Source: Bdellovibrionales bacterium (GTDB lineage: Bacteria > Bdellovibrionota > UBA1018). Taken from it: 64,000 nucleotides of DNA. Within the stretch, counting starts at the first letter, position 1. Every line of letters starts with the position of its first letter. Below, in pieces: positions 23,916-42,004 of this stretch. The translations under genes were made by a program, and so were the position numbers. The stretch spans positions 62,001 through 126,000 of the forward strand of contig JAFEAP010000023.1 in NCBI GenBank assembly GCA_018266355.1, given 5' to 3'. The notes below the pieces were generated by a model. That model made no database searches and was not told the origin of the DNA. It worked only from the letters and a program-made list of their open reading frames with translations.

Positions 23916-25403
23916 CTAGCTCGTGGGGAGTTCGATCGCGAAACAAGTGTTCTTCCGCTCGCGGTCGAAGACGAGTTTTCCGCCGTGTTCCTCGACGATC
24001 CCGCGGGATATCGGCAGCCCGAGGCCGGTACCCTTCCCCGGTTCCTTCGTGGTGAAGAACGGTTCCATCAAACGGCGCTGAGTTTCTTCCGAGAGTACCG
24101 GCCCGCTGTCGGTGACGGAGACGCGGACTCGGCCGTCGACGGAGGTAAAGCCGATCTCCACCCACCGCTCGGCTTCGCGCTGGACGGCGTCGAAGGAGTT
24201 GTTCAGCAAGTTCAGCAGGACTTGCGAAATTTGGGTCGGACGGCAGCGGATCGAGATCTCCGGGATTTCTTCGATCCGAAGGTCGATCGCGTAATCGCGG
24301 AACCGTTCCTGACAGAGGTCGAGCGTCTCGTCGAGGATCGCGCGCAGCGCGGTCGAAACCGGAGGATCGCTCTCCCCGCTGCGCGAGAACATGCGGAGTC
24401 CTTTGATGATCCGTGAGATCCGAAGCGCCGTTTTCTCGATGCGCTCGAGCCCTTGGGTGATCTTTCCGAGATCGCGCGTTTCGCCTTGGACGGCGCGTTT
24501 CAGGAGGCCCGCGGTGCCGTGGATTATGGTGATCGGATTGTTCACTTCGTGGGCGATGCCGGCCGCCATCTGGCCGAGGGAGGCCATCTTAGAGCTGTGG
24601 ACGATCGCCGCTTCGGCACGTCTCTTGGTTCTTAAATCCGTCGCGAAAAAGGCGACGTACTGCGGTTTTCCGTCGGACCCGAGAGAGCAAAAGGTCTTTT
24701 GCCAGATCGGGACGATCTCCTCGGTTTTCGCGTTCAGGAACTCGACTTCGCCTTCCCAGGATTCGTGACGGCCGAAGATAGCGGGAATCATCTCGGATTC
24801 GTATTTCGCGCGGGTCGCCGGAGAGATGAAATCGAAAAGGTTCCCGCCTTCGATCGGCCATCCGAGGTCGGCGACGAGAAAGTGATTCACGTAATGGGTG
24901 CGAAAATTCGCGTCGCAATATCCGATTCCGTCGTTCGACGATTCGATGAGCTGGCGGAGGATCATCGAGCGTTCGCGTTCGCGGATGAGGCTCGACGTTT
25001 CGTGGGTCGCGATCGCGGTCACGCGCTCGAGGCTTTGGAGCGCCATCCGCTGCTCGGTGATGTCGACTCCCGTCCCGTAGAAGTAACCCGATTCCGGATC
25101 GGTCGTCCCGTGCCATCGGACCCAGACGGATGAACCGTTCTTATGGAGGCAGCGATTCTCGAAGTCGCGGTAAGTCCCCCGCCGGAAGACTTCGTCTCGC
25201 GCGCTCCGGCTTCGTTCGACGTCCTCGGGGTGGAAGATCTCGTAAACTTGACGCCCTTCGATCTCGTGGGGTTCGTACCCGAGGATGTCCTTCCAACGCG
25301 GGTTCACGCGCTCGATCTTCCCTTTGCCGTTCGTCACGATGAAAAGCTCGGCGGAAATCGAGAAGAAGCGCTCGAAAACGTTAGGGGTTCGGTCGGGGGC
25401 CAT
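23916..25403 (-). CDS. PAS-PAS sensor histidine kinase without visible partner regulator
   Basis: 495 residues, soluble. A first PAS/PAC domain (about 15-120) and a second (about 150-265) are followed by a HisKA H box SLGQMAAGIAHEVNNP and HATPase boxes: N box LLNLLNNSFDAV, G1-like DSGPVLS and G2 GTGLGLPIS. The G1 box lacks its second glycine (D-S-G-P-V rather than D-x-G-x-G), which may weaken nucleotide binding. No response regulator is adjacent. It is divergent from the motor-like operon across about 200 bp, so control of that operon is possible. The kinase core is closely related to the CHASE kinase at the end of the window. Confidence 0.9.
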   Translation of the reverse strand: MAPDRTPNVFERFFSISAELFIVTNGKGKIERVNPRWKDILGYEPHEIEGRQVYEIFHPEDVERSRSARDEVFRRGTYRDFENRCLHKNGSSVWVRWHGTTDPESGYFYGTGVDITEQRMALQSLERVTAIATHETSSLIRERERSMILRQLIESSNDGIGYCDANFRTHYVNHFLVADLGWPIEGGNLFDFISPATRAKYESEMIPAIFGRHESWEGEVEFLNAKTEEIVPIWQKTFCSLGSDGKPQYVAFFATDLRTKRRAEAAIVHSSKMASLGQMAAGIAHEVNNPITIIHGTAGLLKRAVQGETRDLGKITQGLERIEKTALRISRIIKGLRMFSRSGESDPPVSTALRAILDETLDLCQERFRDYAIDLRIEEIPEISIRCRPTQISQVLLNLLNNSFDAVQREAERWVEIGFTSVDGRVRVSVTDSGPVLSEETQRRLMEPFFTTKEPGKGTGLGLPISRGIVEEHGGKLVFDRERKNTCFAIELPTS

Positions 25404-25604: not shown

Positions 25605-27476
25605 GTGGCATTTGATTACGACAAGATCAAACACAAGAAGGATTCAGGCGAGAATTTCTGGACCGCCTACTCCGACCTTTTCACCGTGCTCAGCGCGGTG
25701 TTTCTCCTCCTCTACGTCGTTTCGAGCGTTCGTAGCGGTACGTTCGGGATCCAAAAAGAGGTGCAGTACCAGGTCCTTGCGAAAGAAGCGCAGGATTTGA
25801 AGAACCAGATTCGGATCTACAACGCCCTCCGCGACGAGACCGTCGAACAGGCGCCGGAAGACGAGCAGCAGCAGTACAAGCTCCTCATGGACAAACTCTC
25901 GCTCCTCCAGGACGAAGCGAAAGGCGAGAAGCAGGATTTGATCGAGAAGTCGCGCCAGCTCGCCCAGAAGGAAACCGCGCTGAACAAGTATCAGCAGATG
26001 ATCCGGAACATCGTGAACGTGAACATGCTTTCGAAGCGCCAGCTTAAGCAACGCGACTTCCTCATCGCGAAGAAGGATTTCGACATCACCGAAAAGGATA
26101 GCGAGATTCGCGACCTGAACACCGACATCCAGAAAAAAGAGGCGGTGATCGAAGAGAATAACCAGCAGATCGCCGCGATCCAAGACAAGCTCGCGGACCA
26201 GATCAAGCGCGTGCGCGCGGAACAGAAAGCGCACCGCACTTCGAAGGCTGCGATGGACAAGAAGATCGCCGCCCTCCAGAACCAGACCGAGGCCCAGATC
26301 GCCGCGATCGAGAACAAGAACGCTTCGATCGAACGCGACCTCCAGATGGCGAAGAGCTCGCTTTCTCTCACCCAGAACCAACTCGCGAAGACTGAGACCC
26401 AGCTCCAGGACGTGACGGCGAACGCCGCGGCCGAGAAGCAGTCGCTCACGGCCAAGATCGCCGCCGCCGAGGCGAAGGCGAACGCCGACCGCGCCGCCCT
26501 CCAAGGCAAACTCGCCGATATTCAAGGCAAGTCGGCCGCGGAAAAGCAGGCCCTCATGGGTCAGATCGAAGCGACGAAGGCCGGGTACGCGAAGCAGATG
26601 GCCGATCTCCAGCGTGAGGGCGAAGCCCAGATGGCGGCCGAAAAGGCCGCGTTCGAGAAGGCGCTCGCCGATTCGAAGGCTTCGGGCGCCGCGCGCGCCG
26701 CGAGGGAAGCCGAATTCCGGAAGAAGGCCGAAGGCGAAGCGAACGCGCTCAAGGGAGCGCTCGCGGGACTCGGCGCGAAGATGGGCGAAGCCGAAAAGCA
26801 GCTTAAGGACGCGAAAGATCGCGAAGGCCGTTACGTGGCTTCGATCGGCGACCTCAAGAAGCAGAACCAAGGTCTCGGCGAGGAGCTCGGCCGGGCGAAG
26901 GAACTCGCCGAAGCCAAGAAGAAACTCGTGAACAACATCAAGGAAAACTTCAAGAAGGCCGGCATCAAGGCCGACGTCGACGATAAAACGGGCGACGTCT
27001 ACCTTTCGTTCGGCGACGACTACTTCGAGTCCGGTCGCGCGGACCTGAAGGAATCGATGCAGCGCCGCCTCGAGAAGTTCATCCCGCAATATTCGAATTC
27101 GCTCTTCAGCGATCCGAAGACGGCGGAGAACATCGCGAGCGTCGAAATCATCGGTTTCGCTTCCTCTACGTATAAGGGCCGGTACGTCAATCCGATGTCC
27201 CTCAAACCGGAAGACAAGGAAGCCGTCGACTACAACTTGAAGCTCTCGTTCTCGCGCGCGAATTCGATCTTCAAGCACATCTTCGATCCGAACAAGCTGC
27301 AGTACCAGCACCAGAAGGATCTGTTGCCGCTCGTGAAGGTCGTCGGACGCGGTTATCTCCCGGAGGGCCGCTCGCCGGCCGAGATCCCGTCGGGCATTTC
27401 GGAGAAGGATTTCTGTAAGAAGTTCAACTGCGCCAAGGCGCAAAAAGTCATCATCAAGTTCAACCTGAAAGAATAG
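25605..27476 (+). CDS. MotB/ZorB-like membrane protein with long coiled coil and OmpA-like C terminus
   Basis: 623 residues, GTG start at 25605 with a TAGGAG ribosome site. The N terminus is MotB-like: FWTAYSDLFTVLSAVFLLLYVVSS, with Asp24 where MotB has its ion-binding Asp and one membrane helix (about 20-44). Residues 55-450 are almost continuous coiled coil rich in Glu, Lys, Gln and Ala. Residues 450-623 look like a divergent OmpA/MotB peptidoglycan-binding domain (VYLSFGDDYFESGRADL, then VEIIGFASS in place of the usual GHTD, then LSFSRANSIFKHIF). Flagellar MotB and ZorB lack the coiled coil. It is the first gene of the operon, with the channel-like partner 25 bp downstream. Confidence 0.8.
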   Translation: MAFDYDKIKHKKDSGENFWTAYSDLFTVLSAVFLLLYVVSSVRSGTFGIQKEVQYQVLAKEAQDLKNQIRIYNALRDETVEQAPEDEQQQYKLLMDKLSLLQDEAKGEKQDLIEKSRQLAQKETALNKYQQMIRNIVNVNMLSKRQLKQRDFLIAKKDFDITEKDSEIRDLNTDIQKKEAVIEENNQQIAAIQDKLADQIKRVRAEQKAHRTSKAAMDKKIAALQNQTEAQIAAIENKNASIERDLQMAKSSLSLTQNQLAKTETQLQDVTANAAAEKQSLTAKIAAAEAKANADRAALQGKLADIQGKSAAEKQALMGQIEATKAGYAKQMADLQREGEAQMAAEKAAFEKALADSKASGAARAAREAEFRKKAEGEANALKGALAGLGAKMGEAEKQLKDAKDREGRYVASIGDLKKQNQGLGEELGRAKELAEAKKKLVNNIKENFKKAGIKADVDDKTGDVYLSFGDDYFESGRADLKESMQRRLEKFIPQYSNSLFSDPKTAENIASVEIIGFASSTYKGRYVNPMSLKPEDKEAVDYNLKLSFSRANSIFKHIFDPNKLQYQHQKDLLPLVKVVGRGYLPEGRSPAEIPSGISEKDFCKKFNCAKAQKVIIKFNLKE

Positions 27477-27501
27477 TTTTCGGTAACTCGGAGGTCGAGA
27501 A

Positions 27502-28584
27502 ATGGACGCAGGCAAAATCGGTTTAATTGAATCTATCGTCAAGGACTACGCCGTAGTCATCAAGGCGATGCTCCTTCCATCGCTCCTCATCGCGTTCACG
27601 GTCGGTTGCGCCCTGCGCATCCTCGTGTACTACACGGTGAAGCGGAACGAGTGGTTCGCCATCGAGTTCGAGAAACGGATGAAGAAATTCATCGAGTCGG
27701 ACGTCCCGACGGACAAACACTCGTTCTACGTGACCGTGAAACGTCTGATGGAGAAGACTTACTACGAGCTCTTCGAAGTCCGCGCGATCATGCGTCGCCG
27801 GAAGCTCGACTACGTCATGGCACCGGGCGACCGACTGTTCCTCATCCAAGCCGGATCGGCCTTCCTCGTGAAGGACACCCTCCGCCAGATTCGCTTCCTG
27901 AGGTACGGCGGCGAGCGCCCGCGCTTCGTCGAGATCTCGAAGACGGTGTTCCAGAATAACCCGTGCTTCAATCGCGTGTTCGGGATCTTCCCGGCCGCGC
28001 CGCTGAACGACATGCTGAACGTCCTTCCGGGCCTTTTCATCGTCGGCGGGATCTTCGGTACCTTCATGGGCATCATGAAGGCCCTCCCGGAACTCACCGG
28101 GATGGACCTGACGAATACGGAAGTGACGAAGGCGACGATGGACGGGTTCCTGACCCGCCTCTCGTTCTCGATGGCCGCCTCGGCCGTCGGCATCTTCCTC
28201 TCCGTCGTCATGACGATGTTGAACACGTTCCTCAATCCGGAACGGATCTTCGTCGAGGTCGTGAACCGGTTCGAGTACTCGCTCGAGTTCCTGTGGCAGC
28301 GTTGCGACATGAACACGGTGCCGGAAGATATCCCGCACTTCGACGAGAACCGCGACGCGATCGAAGCGCTCGCCGAATATTCGGTCGCGCAGGAGATCGC
28401 GAAGCACCATCAGCGCGTCGAGAAGCTGACGGAAACGAAACCGGTTTCGGACGCGGTTCATCAGACGGCCCAGCAGATGATGCTGAACAAGATGGCCGCG
28501 AGCGGGGCGACGCTTCCGAAGTCGGGCGTCCCGACGCCGCCGCCGCCGAAACGCGACGACGGAACCGGCGGCCAAGCGGCCTGA
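27502..28584 (+). CDS. MotA/TolQ/ExbB-superfamily channel subunit, ZorA-like core
   Basis: 360 residues with three predicted membrane helices (about 18-42, 172-193 and 222-243). The second helix has LPGLFIVGGIFGTFMGIMKAL and the third FSMAASAVGIFLSVV, matching the paired P-x-GxxGTFxG and A-x2-A-x-G motifs of the superfamily; the GTFxG form is like ZorA. A cytoplasmic loop of about 120 residues separates helices 1 and 2. The C-terminal tail of about 110 residues is helical then Pro/Gly-rich; it lacks the long coiled coil of ZorA. A CGGAGG ribosome site precedes the ATG. With the upstream MotB-like protein it should form a proton- or sodium-driven stator-type complex. Confidence 0.85.
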   Translation: MDAGKIGLIESIVKDYAVVIKAMLLPSLLIAFTVGCALRILVYYTVKRNEWFAIEFEKRMKKFIESDVPTDKHSFYVTVKRLMEKTYYELFEVRAIMRRRKLDYVMAPGDRLFLIQAGSAFLVKDTLRQIRFLRYGGERPRFVEISKTVFQNNPCFNRVFGIFPAAPLNDMLNVLPGLFIVGGIFGTFMGIMKALPELTGMDLTNTEVTKATMDGFLTRLSFSMAASAVGIFLSVVMTMLNTFLNPERIFVEVVNRFEYSLEFLWQRCDMNTVPEDIPHFDENRDAIEALAEYSVAQEIAKHHQRVEKLTETKPVSDAVHQTAQQMMLNKMAASGATLPKSGVPTPPPPKRDDGTGGQAA

Positions 28585-28642
28585 TCCTTTTGTCTGCAGT
28601 GGATAGCTAACCGTTCAAGCAGTGAGCAAGTTCTAGGGAGTT

Positions 28643-31621
28643 ATGTCGGAGAAAGAATCTTCGAAGAGAATCCGGTTAACGGTGGAAGGAGGTCCGACTC
28701 GGGAGTTTCCCGGGGATCGGACCTTCGTCATCGGCCGGTCTCAAAACGCCGATTTCAGCATTCCTCACCCGAATCTGAGTCGGGAGCACGTGCGCTTCAG
28801 CCTGAAAGACGGCGAGGTGTGGCTGGAGGACCTCGGCTCGGCGAACGGCACGTTCGTCCAGGGCCAGCGGATTCCGCCTAAATCCTCCGTCAAGCTGAAG
28901 TCGCATTATCGCGTATTGCTCGGGACGGGCAGTAACGTCGTGCTCTCGTTCGAGGTCGTGGAAGGTTACGAACCGCTTCCGGCTCCGGAGCCGAAAGGGG
29001 ACGTCGATCTTCCGACGGCCCGCGAACGCACGCTCGCGGCGATCACCCGGAACCAGCAGGCCCGCGACGCGCGCGAGGGCACCGAAGGAACGAAACGCCA
29101 CGCGACCGGCTTCATTCCGGCGGGCGCCCAGCCGCTCACCCCGGTCGAAAAAAGCAATCCGATCACGAAGGACAAGACGAGCTCGAAGATGGAGCTCGAT
29201 TTCCCGCAGCAGCACTTCCCGCACGAAGTGAAAAAAGAGAAGATGGCGGAGCTCCGCATCCTCGAGGCGAAGAAGCAGCGGGTGCTCGAGGACATCCAGT
29301 ACAAGGAACGCGAAGTCGACGACCTTCGTTCGAAGATCCGGACGATGCGCGAGGAGTCGCTCAAGCTCAAGGAGCAGACCGAGAACTTCAAACGCGACCT
29401 TTCCGAACAGGCGCTCCAACTCCGCAGCGTGATCGAGCCGCTGCAGACGAAGAAAGACGACCTGGAGAAGTGCGTCCAGGAGCTCGACCTCATCTATGAG
29501 GAAAAAATCGACTCCCTCGAGACCGGGTTCCGCGACCTGAAAGCTACTCTCGAGGAATCGCACTCCGTGCGCATGGCCCGCGCGGACAAGGAATTCAAGG
29601 AAAAGACCCGTCGACTCGACGAAGAATACGCGAACAAGCTCACCGGACTCGAAGGCGAGATCAACTCCGTGCGCACGGAAGGGGAGCGCCTGCGCGATCA
29701 GCTCGTGAGTGAAAAGCGCGAGCTCGAAGAGAACCTCCGGAAGGTCCGTGCCGAAGCCGAGCGCCTCGAGGCCGACCGTAAGCTCGAACAAGTCCGCATC
29801 GACACCGAGATCGCGAAACTCCAAGGCGCGAAGCTCAAGATCGAAAACGACATCGAATCCGTCCGCCGCGAACACGCGAAGGTCCAATCCGACGCCGCCC
29901 GACTCGTCGAGCAAGGCAAAGCCGCGCGCGCGCAGCGCGAGGAAGCCCGCGCCCAAGTCGAGGAAGCGAAGAAGGAGCTCGAATCGCTCCGTCAGACGAT
30001 TTCCGACGTGAAAAAGAGCGAGGCGAAGAACCTCGAGCGTATCGACGAACTCAAGGCGCACATCACGAGCCTCGAACGGAACGCCGAAGGCATCTCCGGG
30101 CTCATCCGGAAAGCCGAGCAAGACGCCGATGCCGTCCGCCGTCAGGCGAAGGACGAAGTCGAAGCGCTGCGCCGGGCCGTGAAGGACGAAGTCGAATCGT
30201 ATCGCCGGAAGGCCCAGGAAGCCGCCGAGAACGAGCGGCAGACCATCCGGAAGAACGCCGAAGCCCAGGCGCTCGCGCAGATCCAGACCGCGGAAGCCCA
30301 AGCGTTCGCGCGCACCCAGGCGTCGGAGTCCGAGGCGCTCGCGCGGATCCAGACTGCCGAAGCCCAAGCGAACGCCCGTACGCAGTCCTCCGAGCAACAA
30401 GCCAGCCAACGGATTTCTTCCGCGGAGGCCCAGGCTACGGCCCGACTCGAGAAGGCCCAAGAAGACGCGCGCACGATCCTCGAACGCGCGCACACCGAGG
30501 GGAACGCGTATTTCGAGACGAAGAAGCGCGACGCCGACGAGATCTTCGCCACCGCGCAATCGAAGGCGCACGAGCTCGAAAGCGGTTCGAAGAACCACGC
30601 CGAACGCGCGTTGGCGGAAGCGAACGCTTCGCTCGAACAGCGCCGAAAGACGCTCGAGGCCGAGATCGCCGAGCTCCGCCGCCGGACCGACCAGGAAATC
30701 CGCCAGGTCCGCGCGAACGCGCTCGCCGACATCGAAAACGCGAAGGACCGCGAAGCGAAGGAATTGATGAACCGGATGCGCACCCGCGTGAAGTCGATCG
30801 GCGATCAGATCGAGCGCGTCGTCGGTTCGAAGCTCACCGCCCAATTCGGCGTGACGATGGATCCGGTATCGATGAAGGCTTTTTCGGACGAGATCCACCA
30901 GATCGTCGAGACCGTGATCGGTCCTTCGAAGGGCGCCGGCCCCGTGACGAGCACTTCGGCGGGAGAGAAAACCCTCTCGACGATCATGCCCGTCGACAGC
31001 CACGCCCAGGAACGCGCGGTGAAGTACTGGAAGCGCGTCGGCGTGGCCGCGGGAGTTTTCGCGGCCCTCGGCATCGCGCGCATCGCCGCTCCGGGCGCGT
31101 TCACCTGGCTCGGCTCGAAAGTCGGATCCGCGCTCGAGGTGAAGGACAATACCGACGCGGTCGTGAAGCGGATGCTCCGCGAGCGTCAGCTCGCCATGAC
31201 CGTCGTGACCGAACAGGACCAGCGCATCCGCGATTCCTACACCGACAATATCCTCTTCACCGAGGGTTTCATCGAGATGAAGGAAGACGTCGAGACCCAG
31301 AAGTCATGGACGCTCGGCTTGAACAAGTTCTTCCAATCCGAACTCGGCCTCACCGAGAAGGCGATCGTCCAGTTCGGCTCGGCCGAAGGCCGGATGATGC
31401 GCGACCTCGTCGAACAACGGAAGAACCTCGTCCCGGCGTCGAAAGACGCGGGGATCGCGAAGATGCGCGAGACGGAAGCCGGATACGTGAAGGAGATCAA
31501 ATTCACGCTCCGTACCGACGGAAATTGGCAGAAATACCTCGAGTACCAACGCGACTTCTACGCGAAGTACACCCAGTCGTTCGTGAACCGGGCACCGGCG
31601 AATGCCAAAGGCACGAAATAG
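28643..31621 (+). CDS. FHA-domain, long coiled-coil, single-membrane-helix protein
   Basis: 992 residues. An N-terminal FHA domain (about 8-105) has VIGRSQNADFSI, LSREHVRF and LGSANGTFVQG, the phosphothreonine-binding loop residues. A linker (115-190) is followed by coiled coil from about 195 to 760. Residues 539-604 are six near-perfect 11-residue repeats (AEAQALAQIQT type), with weaker ones after. One membrane helix lies near 800-822, leaving about 170 residues beyond it. The predicted layout is cytoplasmic FHA and coil, then periplasmic tail. It is the third gene of the motor-like operon (58 bp gap, TAGGGAG ribosome site), so it likely links phospho-signals to that complex. I do not know a named homologue. 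Confidence 0.85.
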   Translation: MSEKESSKRIRLTVEGGPTREFPGDRTFVIGRSQNADFSIPHPNLSREHVRFSLKDGEVWLEDLGSANGTFVQGQRIPPKSSVKLKSHYRVLLGTGSNVVLSFEVVEGYEPLPAPEPKGDVDLPTARERTLAAITRNQQARDAREGTEGTKRHATGFIPAGAQPLTPVEKSNPITKDKTSSKMELDFPQQHFPHEVKKEKMAELRILEAKKQRVLEDIQYKEREVDDLRSKIRTMREESLKLKEQTENFKRDLSEQALQLRSVIEPLQTKKDDLEKCVQELDLIYEEKIDSLETGFRDLKATLEESHSVRMARADKEFKEKTRRLDEEYANKLTGLEGEINSVRTEGERLRDQLVSEKRELEENLRKVRAEAERLEADRKLEQVRIDTEIAKLQGAKLKIENDIESVRREHAKVQSDAARLVEQGKAARAQREEARAQVEEAKKELESLRQTISDVKKSEAKNLERIDELKAHITSLERNAEGISGLIRKAEQDADAVRRQAKDEVEALRRAVKDEVESYRRKAQEAAENERQTIRKNAEAQALAQIQTAEAQAFARTQASESEALARIQTAEAQANARTQSSEQQASQRISSAEAQATARLEKAQEDARTILERAHTEGNAYFETKKRDADEIFATAQSKAHELESGSKNHAERALAEANASLEQRRKTLEAEIAELRRRTDQEIRQVRANALADIENAKDREAKELMNRMRTRVKSIGDQIERVVGSKLTAQFGVTMDPVSMKAFSDEIHQIVETVIGPSKGAGPVTSTSAGEKTLSTIMPVDSHAQERAVKYWKRVGVAAGVFAALGIARIAAPGAFTWLGSKVGSALEVKDNTDAVVKRMLRERQLAMTVVTEQDQRIRDSYTDNILFTEGFIEMKEDVETQKSWTLGLNKFFQSELGLTEKAIVQFGSAEGRMMRDLVEQRKNLVPASKDAGIAKMRETEAGYVKEIKFTLRTDGNWQKYLEYQRDFYAKYTQSFVNRAPANAKGTK
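30257..30454 (+). repeat. Six tandem 33-nt units encoding 11-residue (hendecad) repeats
   Basis: Within the FHA gene, codons 539-604 form six consecutive 33-nt units encoding variants of A-E-A-Q-A-x-A-R-x-Q-T. The units diverge at the DNA level, so this is an old amplified coding repeat rather than a recent tandem duplication. Eleven-residue periodicity indicates a right-handed or nearly straight coiled coil. Weaker units continue to about 30586. Confidence 0.75.
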
Positions 31622-31625
31622 TCCG

Positions 31626-32690
31626 ATGCGCTCGCCGCTCTCCGTTCTCGCGCTCGCGACGCTCTTCGCCTGCGCGCACGCCGCGTCGCGGGATCCCTAT
31701 CGTGTTCCCGCGTCCCAGCTGACTGCGGAAGGTTGTACGGTCGACGCCGCGAAAGAAGTGATCGCCGGTCGCGCGAAGGTGCCGCGCTACCTCTATCATT
31801 TCGGGAAGGTCTCCGCGATGGAGCCGTTCGTGAAAGGCCACGGAATTTCGGAAGCGGATTTCCGCTCGACGTTCCTCGCCCCGGATGATCGGTGGATCCT
31901 CCCCCCGTTTCGCCGCGGACTCTACGGATCGGAGGCGGCGCTCCGTCCGGATCGGTTCGCGAACGCGGCCGAGCCGAGCTTGATTCGGATCGAGATCGCC
32001 GAGGAATGCCGGGCGCCCGCGACCACGGGGACGACCCTCGGCATCCTCGACGATCCGCGCTTTCGGAAATGGGTCGCGGCGAAGCCCGAGTACGCCGACT
32101 TGAAGTGTTACGATCCCGTGCACGACCGGATCGTCGGTCGGCTTTATACGAAGTACGAAACGACGGAGCCGAGCGAACAAACCCGGAAATGCGAGTCGAT
32201 GTTCAATCAATTCCTCGTCGAGTCCGGCATGCGCGTGGTCCTCGACGAGGGGTACCCGGGAAGCTGGTACATCCGGGATCCGAAATGCGTGAAACGGATC
32301 GAAGGATCGGGCGCGGAGACGCTCGCGTGGATGGCCGATCCGAATTTCTTCGGCTCGGACGGCTGCGGTCCGATCGGAGAGACGAAAAACACTTTCCGGA
32401 TCTTCATCCGCGCGGCGGTCTCGGCGCCTTACCGCGACTACACGCCGGATCCGAATTACGACCGGGCGCGGGTGAATTGGACGAACGCGAACCTGACGAG
32501 TCCGCCGACCTCGGCTTGGGCGGGCGCGTTCGCGAACGCCTATTACCGCTGCGGCCTAGCCGGAAAATTCTCCGAGCTTCGATCCGCCCGCGCGAATTTC
32601 GACGCCGTTCTTGCGGACATCGATTTATACGAGTTCTACGTCCGTGATAACGGCGATCCCGATCCGGGATTTGACGGACTCTGCAAATAG
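31626..32690 (+). CDS. Exported protein with possible ADP-ribosyltransferase-like fold
   Basis: 354 residues from the ATG at 31626, four bases after the FHA gene stop; a signal sequence (LSVLALATLFACAHA) may be cleaved after AHA or, less likely, lipidated at Cys16. Segments resemble ART-fold landmarks: RYLYHFGK (His58), FRRGLYGSEAA (Tyr100) and GSWYIRDPKCVKRI near 212-225. The expected catalytic Glu just before the third strand is not obvious (Ser213 there). Nine or so Cys are spread through the mature part. ART-like assignment is by eye and tentative. It probably belongs to the motor operon because of the 4-bp gap. Confidence 0.55.
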   Translation: MRSPLSVLALATLFACAHAASRDPYRVPASQLTAEGCTVDAAKEVIAGRAKVPRYLYHFGKVSAMEPFVKGHGISEADFRSTFLAPDDRWILPPFRRGLYGSEAALRPDRFANAAEPSLIRIEIAEECRAPATTGTTLGILDDPRFRKWVAAKPEYADLKCYDPVHDRIVGRLYTKYETTEPSEQTRKCESMFNQFLVESGMRVVLDEGYPGSWYIRDPKCVKRIEGSGAETLAWMADPNFFGSDGCGPIGETKNTFRIFIRAAVSAPYRDYTPDPNYDRARVNWTNANLTSPPTSAWAGAFANAYYRCGLAGKFSELRSARANFDAVLADIDLYEFYVRDNGDPDPGFDGLCK

Positions 32691-37644: not shown

Positions 37645-38496
37645 GTGAAAGAGCATACCAGTCGATTCCTCAGAGCGACGGCGTACGTCTATCTCGCCTT
37701 TCCGGTGACGTACCTCCTTTACGCGGCCTTGCTCTTCAATCTCAGTCCCGCGCGGTCGTCGCGCATCTTTTTCAGCTTTTCGTATTGGGCGCTCGCCGTA
37801 TGCGGAATCGCCGTCGGTTACGGGTTTCGCGAGATGACCCGCTGGGCTTGGCACGTCTTCCTCCTGAATTCGCTTTTCGTCGCTTATACGAACGCGCTCA
37901 TCGCGATCCGGTACTCGGAATCGAACAATCCCTTCCTCGCCTTCCTCGTCTCGATCGCCCTTCTCGTCGGTCTCATGGTCCGGCTCGGGAAAGAAATCCG
38001 AGTCCCGTATTTCCTACCGAAGATCCGGTGGTGGGAGACGAATCCGCGCTACAAACTCTCCGTCCCCGTTCGCGTCGAGCGCAAAGACACGGGATTCGAG
38101 GGAGAAATCCTCGATATTTCGATCGGCGGCTGTTTCATCAAGAGCCGGAACGACCTGACCCAAAACGAGCGTATCCTTTCTCGCTTCGAACTCTTCGGAG
38201 AGAAACTCGAGATCGGCGGCACGGTCGTCTGGCGCAGCCAGAGCTCCGTGACCCACCCGAAAGGGGTCGGCGTGAAGTTCGACGAACTCGATAAGCTCCA
38301 GCGGAAGATCATGAAGGCCGTGATGCTTCACCTGAAGAAAATCTCGGCCCTCCAAACGTCGAGGAACCGCCTTTCGCCGGAGGATTTCAACCAAAAGATG
38401 GCGAAGCTGAAGAACCATCACCTCGGCATTACCGAAAAGGGCGCGGATTCCGAACCTGACCCGGAGCCGGGTTCGAACCGCGAGCGGGCGTCTTGA
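37645..38496 (+). CDS. Membrane protein with C-terminal PilZ (cyclic-di-GMP-binding) domain
   Basis: 283 residues, GTG start. Four hydrophobic helices fill residues 8-115, then a PilZ domain from about 130: NPRYKLSVPVRVE and LDISIGGCFIKS, matching the R-x3-R and D/N-x-S-x2-G motifs, although the first motif here is RYKLS with a single Arg. Binding of cyclic di-GMP is probable but the weak RxxxR motif leaves doubt. The membrane part has no recognised domain. Its stop overlaps the TTG start of tadA, so the pair is co-translated. Confidence 0.82.
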   Translation: MKEHTSRFLRATAYVYLAFPVTYLLYAALLFNLSPARSSRIFFSFSYWALAVCGIAVGYGFREMTRWAWHVFLLNSLFVAYTNALIAIRYSESNNPFLAFLVSIALLVGLMVRLGKEIRVPYFLPKIRWWETNPRYKLSVPVRVERKDTGFEGEILDISIGGCFIKSRNDLTQNERILSRFELFGEKLEIGGTVVWRSQSSVTHPKGVGVKFDELDKLQRKIMKAVMLHLKKISALQTSRNRLSPEDFNQKMAKLKNHHLGITEKGADSEPDPEPGSNRERAS

Positions 38497-40040: not shown

Positions 40041-40781
40041 CTAGGGCCGACCGACCCGAAGCGCGAGGTTCCACTCGACCGCGCGCTTTCCCTCGCCCCA
40101 GTACGGCGCGATCTTCTCCGCCACCGCGAGCGTCGGATCGACGCCGTGGCGATCGACGTAGAGCTGGGTCGCCGACCAGGTCCGCACGTAGCCCATCCAT
40201 TCGGCGAGCGTCCACTCGACGGCGAGGCGGAATCGCGGCGCGGGGATCTCGCGGAACGGGAAATCGAGGTCCCGGTAGTCGTTCCAAATCAGCCGATTGT
40301 TCGGCTTCCAAAACGGGCCGAGCGTTTCGAAATGAAACGCGTCGAGGACTCGGTCGATCTCCGGCCGGATCGGGGCTTGGAATCCGTACGCCCAAGCCGC
40401 GATCACGCCGTCCGCCTTCAGCACCCGCTTCGCCTCGGCGTAGAACTTCGGGAGATCGAACCAGTGGATCGCTTGGGCGACGGTGACGAGATCGATCGAG
40501 CGGTCCGGTTCAGGGAGCGGGGCTTCGGCGGGCAGCGTGCGGTACTCGACGTTCTTCACGGCGGCGGCGTTCCGGAGTTGGGTCTCGCTCAAATCGGTCG
40601 CGATCACGCGCTCGAAATGCTGGGAGAGATCGAGCGCGGCCTGGCCGTTCCCGGTCGCGCAGTCCCACGCCGTGCGTCTCGCCGGGCATGCGTCGGCGAG
40701 GAAACGATAAAGGTCCTCCGGATAGCCGGGGCGATGAACGGAGTAGAGCGAGGACTGCTTCGAGAAAAGATCGGTCGTCAT
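40041..40781 (-). CDS. Class I SAM-dependent methyltransferase
   Basis: 246 residues from the ATG at 40781. The Rossmann SAM site is AWDCATGNGQAALDLS, with motif IVTDLSETQL-like (VIATDLSETQL) and the later VTVAQAIHWF and LKADGVIAAW. Early YRPGYPEDLY is typical of the small-molecule trans-aconitate or Tmt-like group. Substrate unknown. It overlaps the FAD monooxygenase by four bases (ATGA) as its downstream partner, suggesting a joint modification of one small molecule. Confidence 0.87.
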   Translation of the reverse strand: MTTDLFSKQSSLYSVHRPGYPEDLYRFLADACPARRTAWDCATGNGQAALDLSQHFERVIATDLSETQLRNAAAVKNVEYRTLPAEAPLPEPDRSIDLVTVAQAIHWFDLPKFYAEAKRVLKADGVIAAWAYGFQAPIRPEIDRVLDAFHFETLGPFWKPNNRLIWNDYRDLDFPFREIPAPRFRLAVEWTLAEWMGYVRTWSATQLYVDRHGVDPTLAVAEKIAPYWGEGKRAVEWNLALRVGRP

Positions 40782-42004
40782 TCGCGCCGGAGCCTCGCGA
40801 TTTCCCTTCGCGCCGGACCGACTTCCGAGATCGCGCGCGCGAGGATACCCTGGAGGAAGCGGAGATTCGCGAAGAATGGGAGCACGAAGCGGACGACGAG
40901 GCCGGTGAGCGGCGATTCCGGCCGGGTCGCGGTGCGCAGGACGAATCCCGTGATTCGGGAAACCCACTCGGCGACCGGACGGCGTTCGCGTTCGTAACCT
41001 TCGAGGGTCGTCATCGGCGCGCGCTCGCGGAGAACGTCCGCGATCCGTCGTCCGAGATTCACGGCGTCGTGGATGCCGATGTTCATTCCCTGGCCGCCGA
41101 CGGGGCTGTGGATGTGGGCGGCGTCGCCGGCGAGGAAAACGCGGTGACGACCGCACGAATTCGCGATGCGCCGATGGATGCGGAAACCGGTGATCCACGT
41201 CGGGTCGCGGAGTTTGATCGGCTGGCGGAGGACTTCGTCGACCCAACGCTGAAAATCGGCGAGCGTCGGCTCGCTCGCGGTCGTGAACGCCGAACCCTCG
41301 CGGGGAACGACGACCATCCGGTAGCGACCCTTCTCCTTGAACGGGAAAAACGCGGACGCCCCTTTTCGGGTGACGAAGGTGCGCACGCCTTCGTAATTCC
41401 AGGGCCACTCGAGGGTGAGGTCGGCGAGCATAAACGCGCCGGGGTACTGGACGCCGGTAAAGGTGAGGCCGAGCGATTCGCGCACGCCGCTATGGGAACC
41501 GTCGCATCCGACGACGAAATCCGCGCGTACGGATTCGGTCTTTCCTCCGTCGTCACGGAGCTCGACCCGAACCGCTTCGGAGAACTCCTCGAGCCCGGCG
41601 AATTCCTTTCTCCGCTCGACCGCGACGCCGCGGCGGAGGAGTTCTTCCTCGAGGAACCGCTCGGTTTCGGACTGCGCGAGGATCAAAACGAAGTTATAGC
41701 GGCTCGGCACGCGGTCGAGGCTCGCGACCGCGGTCTTCCCGCCTTCGAAACCGAGGGTGATCTCGTGGGCGACGTGACCGGCGGCGATCATGGCCTTCGA
41801 AACCGAATCGCCGAGGAGGGCGTCGAAGAGTTCGAGCGATCCCGCGTGCACGCCGAGCGCGCGCGATTTATCCGAGCGCGCGGATTGTTTCTCGATGATC
41901 CGTACGGAAATCCCCGCACGAGCGAGGACGAGGGCGAGCGTGAGTCCCGTCGGTCCGGCGCCGACGATGAGGACCTTGGGGGGGCGCGCGGAGAGTTCGG
42001 CCAT
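40778..42004 (-). CDS. FAD-dependent monooxygenase (class A, PF01494 type)
   Basis: 408 residues from the ATG at 42004. The FAD site GAGPTGLTLALVLARAG is at the N terminus, the second motif VGCDGSHSGVRESLG near 155, and the GD motif FLAGDAAHIHSPVGGQGMN near 275. These are the three signatures of aromatic hydroxylases. The product class (hydroxylated aromatic, quinone or polyketide) is not predictable. It is the first gene of a pair with the methyltransferase, a combination common in small-molecule tailoring or ubiquinone-like pathways. Confidence 0.9.
   Translation of the reverse strand: MAELSARPPKVLIVGAGPTGLTLALVLARAGISVRIIEKQSARSDKSRALGVHAGSLELFDALLGDSVSKAMIAAGHVAHEITLGFEGGKTAVASLDRVPSRYNFVLILAQSETERFLEEELLRRGVAVERRKEFAGLEEFSEAVRVELRDDGGKTESVRADFVVGCDGSHSGVRESLGLTFTGVQYPGAFMLADLTLEWPWNYEGVRTFVTRKGASAFFPFKEKGRYRMVVVPREGSAFTTASEPTLADFQRWVDEVLRQPIKLRDPTWITGFRIHRRIANSCGRHRVFLAGDAAHIHSPVGGQGMNIGIHDAVNLGRRIADVLRERAPMTTLEGYERERRPVAEWVSRITGFVLRTATRPESPLTGLVVRFVLPFFANLRFLQGILARAISEVGPARREIARLRRE

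Follow-up and report, generated by a model that had tools for sequence, protein, structure and literature searches.

Which kind of machine is encoded by an operon that joins a MotB/ZorB-like subunit and a ZorA/TolQ-like channel subunit to a membrane protein carrying a phosphothreonine-reading FHA domain? Ion-driven motors of 5:2 composition serve flagella, Tol/Ton, gliding and Zorya. The three genes considered here, termed B, A and F, lie in a window of 64,000 nucleotides, positions 62,001-126,000 of a contig in a 3.9-Mb assembly of a Bdellovibrionales bacterium. A preliminary description, made from the letters of this window, had taken them for an energised, envelope-spanning engine controlled by Ser/Thr phosphorylation and knew of no named system of this composition; we likewise found none in the libraries and open-licence papers searched. 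We consider it on balance probable that the operon encodes a wall-anchored 5:2 ion motor of the ZorAB/MotAB type coupled to a cytoplasmic signal reader.

The three proteins of the operon

All three genes were recovered as ORFs on one strand with exactly the boundaries reported before, and are separated by gaps of 25 bp (B-A) and 58 bp (A-F). Homologues exist only in the + frames of this region, and the long antisense ORFs are therefore read as high-GC shadows.

Gene B (25605..27476, + strand; 623 aa, GTG start) was characterised by Pfam, PADLOC, conservation, PDB-profile and periodicity analyses. Its product has a short cytoplasmic N-terminus, a membrane helix with Asp24, a helical stalk of ~380 residues and an OmpA-like ZorB/MotB domain. 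The MotB-type N-terminus with Asp24 in the membrane helix, as originally described, is borne out by a MotB_plug match at residues 9-47 (Pfam, 9.1e-6) and by the retention of Asp24 in 60/61 aligned relatives, the single exception being possibly misaligned. The coiled coil of about 390 residues first ascribed to B is in part something else: residues 156-425 (~270) form a proline-free, canonical coiled coil, whose strong heptad signal when large hydrophobics are counted (z = 11.4) vanishes if alanine is counted as hydrophobic, whereas the membrane-proximal ~110 residues (aa 46-155) are a conserved, helix-like segment with a weak heptad signal. The stalk region varies between 240 and 449 residues across the main clade of the family. 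As an extended helical stalk rises by ~0.15 nm per residue, a fully extended B stalk would exceed the width of a typical periplasm and so must fold, tilt or flex; this point of geometry counts against the motor reading preferred here.

The remainder of B matches ZorB1 (PADLOC, residues 428-622, 9e-31), with the OmpA-like domain occupying aa ~430-623. A profile of this C-terminal domain found the type II ZorB chain 8vvi as its best match (5.9e-10), followed by MotB chains. Residues N544, L547, S548, R551, C604 and C609 are invariant (65/65), and with its peptidoglycan-type motif (65/65) the domain is predicted to be of the peptidoglycan-binding type.

Gene A (27502..28584, + strand; 360 aa) is matched by the ZorA models of PADLOC and NCBIfam, while its match to Pfam MotA_ExbB (PF01618) stays below the cut-off. 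When the family profile was compared with the PDB, ZorA (8qyh) came out at 5e-8, and below E = 1 there were no chains of MotA, TolQ or ExbB. An AlphaFold2 model of A (pLDDT 88.9) has helices at residues 3-65, 165-199 and 206-243, corresponding to three membrane helices, and its best fold match in the PDB is again ZorA (8qyd; Foldseek, 1.3e-4), with TolQ/ExbB next at ~1e-2; global TM-scores in this comparison were low, extended helices superposing poorly. The last membrane helix is followed by a C-terminal tail of ~115 residues. With respect to the channel motifs proposed earlier, GTFxG (Thr187) is invariant in 66/66 sequences, as is Ser227-x2-Gly230, but the proposed A-x2-A-x-G contributes its glycine alone to the invariant set. 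In the profile alignment, counted by hand, Thr187 and Ser227 correspond to Thr147 and Ser184 of ZorA, and they presumably lie in the ion path. The fold and pore motifs of A, together with the single Asp-bearing membrane helix of B, place the pair in the MotA/TolQ/ExbB/ZorA superfamily, as anticipated; by profile and modelled fold, the closest relative of A appears to be ZorA of anti-phage Zorya, not MotA or TolQ.

Gene F (28643..31621, + strand; 992 aa) combines an FHA domain, a coiled coil, one membrane helix and a predicted periplasmic domain, as judged from Pfam, periodicity, hydropathy, charge bias and AlphaFold2. The features named in the preliminary description could all be located: FHA at aa 29-94 (Pfam, 1.7e-17), coiled coil at aa ~196-690 and a single membrane helix at ~799-817 (hydropathy). 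Within the coiled coil, aa 196-500 follow a heptad pattern (z = 9.0), and the periodicity of aa 501-690 is strongest at 11 residues. A positive-inside charge bias in 40/46 relatives places the N-terminus in the cytoplasm. A conserved, all-helical C-terminal domain of ~175 residues (~821-992) had been overlooked. The model of the last 310 aa of F has a pLDDT of 88, rising above 90 in most of this helical domain, for which no match by fold was found in the PDB; we take the domain to be periplasmic and new.

The proposed control by Ser/Thr phosphorylation has been weakened. The phosphate-site Arg, Ser, His and Asn of the FHA domain are all present in the window protein, and most relatives retain them, though not universally (R32 in 41/45, H49 in 43/45, N68 in 38/45). 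However, the F protein of Bacteriovorax BSW11_IV has no FHA domain, and in one genome (G196) F is cut within the FHA domain (L122 10437-11541 / L165 6385-8457), its start remaining beside A and the rest standing as an open 691-aa frame ~0.9 Mb away, through rearrangement or assembly error. A domain that is missing in one F, altered at its pThr-site residues in several others and cut in another argues against FHA-based signal control. Moreover, no kinase was seen adjoining the genes, and co-occurrence with kinases is uninformative because all 29 genomes examined contain Ser/Thr kinases, equally with or without F.

Elsewhere (G115, L094 10231-15633), F is broken up into three overlapping fragments in which part of the FHA domain is repeated, perhaps a duplication or an assembly fault. 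We also compared F with the FHA proteins of B. bacteriovorus. Bd0474 and Bd0473 likewise combine FHA with a membrane segment, and predation depends on Bd0474, but the latter contains two FHA domains together with TPRs and belongs to a separate operon, Bd0470-0475 (PMC12034629, PMC6561027); with architecture and operon both differing, identity of F with Bd0474 was ruled out.

Distribution and exchange of partner genes

Among Bdellovibrionota genomes at least 80% complete, 165/325 carry A; some of the genomes used for comparison are draft bins. The 55 loci of the main A clade all have B directly upstream of A (55/55), and in 46/55 F is directly downstream. Nine loci depart from this by having no intact F after A: six have a divergent ankyrin-type gene, and in the others F is split into two frames (L109), broken (L122) or replaced after A by an unrelated gene (L111). 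F itself occurs in 122 genomes, 118 of which also have A (hand count; Fisher 1e-43, a value that ignores phylogeny). The genes flanking the three show no conservation across the examined loci. The B-A-F order is thus conserved across the phylum; as A also falls inside the superfamily, the reading survived both of the refuting conditions set in the preliminary description. The inheritance of the operon looks vertical. In one pair of records (L045 8443-10899 / L019), a frame of A type (819 aa) overlaps one of B type that is read in a different frame, possibly through a frameshift or assembly fault.

A further copy is found at 1,107,724-1,112,616 of genome G177, which we take to be B. bacteriovorus HD100; its B is 36% and its A 50% identical to the window counterpart. 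A search of open-licence papers around locus tags Bd1145-1150 returned nothing on these genes. Beyond Bdellovibrionota, the scope was one exact-pattern scan of contigs together with plasmid and phage searches. The peptide-pattern scan returned only records titled within this group (including Oligoflexia bacterium, Bdellovibrionaceae bacterium and Bacteriovorax sp. BSW11_IV) and one labelled just 'Proteobacteria', and the operon was not found in the plasmid and phage searches.

The partner of the A-B pair changes by clade. In a second A clade (20 rows of the cNMP type, support 100/100), the partner is a protein of ~150 residues that is mainly a cyclic-nucleotide-binding domain (Pfam 1e-14 to 2e-21). 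Its gene follows A by 0-20 bp in most loci; in one (L179) it is on the opposite strand, and in another (L048) it is cut by the contig end. A response-regulator receiver protein (6.7e-26) lies 12 bp after A in a single genome, G128, the only such case. In a third clade (9 rows, support 100/99), a divergent gene upstream of B encodes an ankyrin-type partner, in which an N-domain that is possibly FHA-like is accompanied by membrane helices, a proline-rich region and ankyrin repeats. We did not accept this N-domain as a true FHA, given its weak profile similarity (32.7%) and absent pThr residues, and leave it as a possible one. B reaches 1036 aa in operons of the second clade (L098, L100, L166-L180 and others), owing to its stalk.

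The observation new to this analysis is this clade-wise swap, either of the gene after A, for one encoding a cNMP-binding or receiver protein, or for a divergent ankyrin protein. Mapped on the A tree, the partner labels require 7 changes, as against 35 when shuffled. Taken most simply, the motor comes with a signal-reading partner, for which another has been substituted several times over. FHA would then be a single case among alternative cytoplasmic readers that accompany one and the same motor, which extends the first interpretation of the locus. Some loci, however, have A and B without a recognised reader, which weighs against a signal-linked motor.

Relationship to Zorya and other ion-driven motors

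The nearest solved relatives of the pair are ZorA and ZorB, PADLOC assigns B to ZorB1 with high significance and the modular third gene recalls the Zorya types. These features would suit a Zorya-type anti-phage defence system in which ZorAB senses wall damage and F, or the cNMP-binding or receiver protein, is a new sensor or effector. Zorya types I and II (PDB 8qyd, 8vvn, 8vvi; PMC11890865) also share with the operon a three-helix A subunit with a Ser/Thr ring, a B subunit with a membrane Asp (also D24) and an OmpA-like domain, and a two-gene core with a variable third part. The curated cut-offs were nevertheless missed, at 28.2 vs 100 bits for ZorA_2, 18.1 vs 750 for ZorA1 and 22.5 vs 400 for ZorB1. 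The short tail of A differs from the long tails of ZorA (residues 236-696 in type I, 100-378 in type II; PMC11890865), the B stalk is far longer than in Zorya, and the coiled coil and FHA domain reside in a separate membrane protein.

The genomic setting points the same way. No ZorC/D/E-type neighbours were seen: no Zorya effector was present among the 25 commonest of the 55 matching PADLOC families listed for 132 neighbour proteins, in which PADLOC matches were scattered, nor among the 10 window neighbours scanned. None of these operons turned up in the plasmid and phage searches, and A is present in half of one phylum, whereas higher-scoring ZorA candidates with long tails are sporadic, in 4/315 genomes (L153, L154, L155 and L159). 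As cut-offs, tail, effectors and distribution all fail, we reject membership in Zorya; and with no Zorya effector among the neighbour matches listed and so wide a presence of A, defence, which had been listed as one possible role, is improbable.

An accessory flagellar stator is very improbable. It would account for the MotB N-terminus with its membrane Asp, the MotB_plug match and the OmpA-like wall-binding domain, all of which recall MotAB/PomAB, and most hosts are flagellated (FliG in 287/315). But A has three, not four, membrane helices, many flagellated genomes have no A, the operon contains an extra partner gene and no linkage to flagellar genes was seen in the loci examined. This reading was rejected on account of two genomes without FliG, G283 (97% complete) and G285 (99%), which keep A and F.

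Alternatively, the operon could encode the motor still missing for surface gliding, or for prey invasion and exit, in Bdellovibrionota. F would then stand in for GltG in a machine resembling Agl-Glt, and the readers would set its timing. The Bdellovibrio gliding motor has not yet been identified (PMC13104615), both gliding and exit of B. bacteriovorus are under the control of cyclic dinucleotides (PMC9140294) and the operon is present in G177. In Myxococcus, the gliding motor AglRQS-GltG is likewise driven by ions, resembles TolQR and has a membrane partner that bears an FHA domain: GltG joins this domain to a membrane segment and interacts with the motor subunit AglR (PMC3169522). On the other hand, the operon is not accompanied by any outer-membrane or adhesin gene, and Bdellovibrio has separate Agl/Glt clusters, one of them proposed for gliding (PMC3169522). 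Nor is A of the AglR type, its PF01618 match being sub-threshold as compared with 4.4e-18 for AglR (PMC3169522). Taken as a whole, this assignment seems to us possible but doubtful.

Two narrower versions of it can be set aside. An Agl-Glt motor proper was rejected on the two subunits: AglR has a TolQ-type Pfam match and AglQ/AglS are of the ExbD/TolR type, whereas B has MotB_plug and an OmpA-like domain with no ExbD match, and A falls below the PF01618 cut-off. F was likewise rejected as GltG, which has a TonB-type domain, whereas F has a long coiled coil, an unrelated helical bundle as its C-terminal, predicted periplasmic domain and no TonB match; the GltG model of NCBIfam scored 16.3 vs 650 bits.

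We think it unlikely that the operon is a Tol/Ton-like housekeeping machine that constricts the envelope or maintains the outer membrane, F being its scaffold and not a signal-controlled switch. The superfamily fold (A resembles the three-helix subunits of TolQR/ExbBD), the vertical-looking distribution and the peptidoglycan-type domain agree with such a role. It is harder to reconcile with the absence of the operon from about half of the genomes, with a B subunit that is MotB/ZorB-like and not TolR/ExbD-like, and with an operon that has no TolA/TonB gene and no Tol/Pal-type partner; readers of three kinds, moreover, argue for regulation.

A proposed signal-linked envelope motor

The preferred reading, a ZorAB/MotAB-type motor tied to a signal reader, draws on residues that are invariant or nearly so (A Thr187 and Ser227, B Asp24), on the cytoplasmic orientation of the F N-terminus and on the retention of A and F in the genomes without FliG. 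In the superfamily, ion flow through an A5B2 channel, via an Asp/polar ring, drives rotation relative to wall-bound B (PMC11890865, PMC9389320); D24 of ZorB is required for Zorya defence, and a Ser/Thr ring has been described in ZorA (PMC11890865). From the conserved residues and the modelled fold we infer the same 5:2 stoichiometry and ion flow for A and B, such that five A subunits would surround two B subunits in the inner membrane and ion flow would turn A around wall-anchored B.

F would dock on this motor by its membrane helix and periplasmic domain, and a phosphothreonine partner bound at the predicted FHA site would gate or load it; in other clades, the binding of a cyclic nucleotide or the phosphorylation of the receiver would do so instead. 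Such gating or loading is what we infer from gene order and from the clade-wise exchange of readers, although the swapped partners could equally be effectors or scaffolds. F may in addition provide, in trans, the kind of long cytoplasmic rod that forms the C-terminal tail of ZorA itself, as the length and location of F suggest. Mechanical work on the cell envelope is the probable output; surface motility by gliding and prey entry or exit are the leading candidates, followed by general envelope work. In its boldest form, the proposal would be of an unnamed, phylum-wide set of envelope motors with interchangeable readers, powering surface movement or prey invasion and using F as a detachable ZorA tail; we offer this as a speculation that is unlikely to hold in full.

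If the motor reading is right, these genes would represent a further branch of 5:2 motors, nearest to ZorAB, apparently not devoted to defence, spread through one phylum and without a counterpart in the curated families searched. That the signalling domain of the partner differs from clade to clade would then offer a direct way to ask how cytoplasmic signals control such motors. HD100 is genetically tractable, and the operon may bear on its gliding motor. Automated defence finders may label these genes as Zorya.

Several neighbours of the operon in the window deserve mention in their own right. At 31602-32690 (+), sharing 20 bp with the 3' end of F, lies an ORF of 362 aa that carries a lipoprotein-like signal (LFAC); it has no Pfam or PADLOC match and is absent from the same place in two related loci (L023, L024). 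Divergent from the operon, at 23916-25403 (-), is a PAS-PAS histidine kinase with a homologue at the equivalent place in L024, absent from most other loci. At 40041-41408 (-), a partial PADLOC mad2 match (5e-12, residues 229-337) probably reflects a shared ATPase or kinase module. Finally, ~6 kb downstream of the operon, a PilZ-domain protein (2.4e-16; 37645-38496, +) is a possible c-di-GMP receptor.
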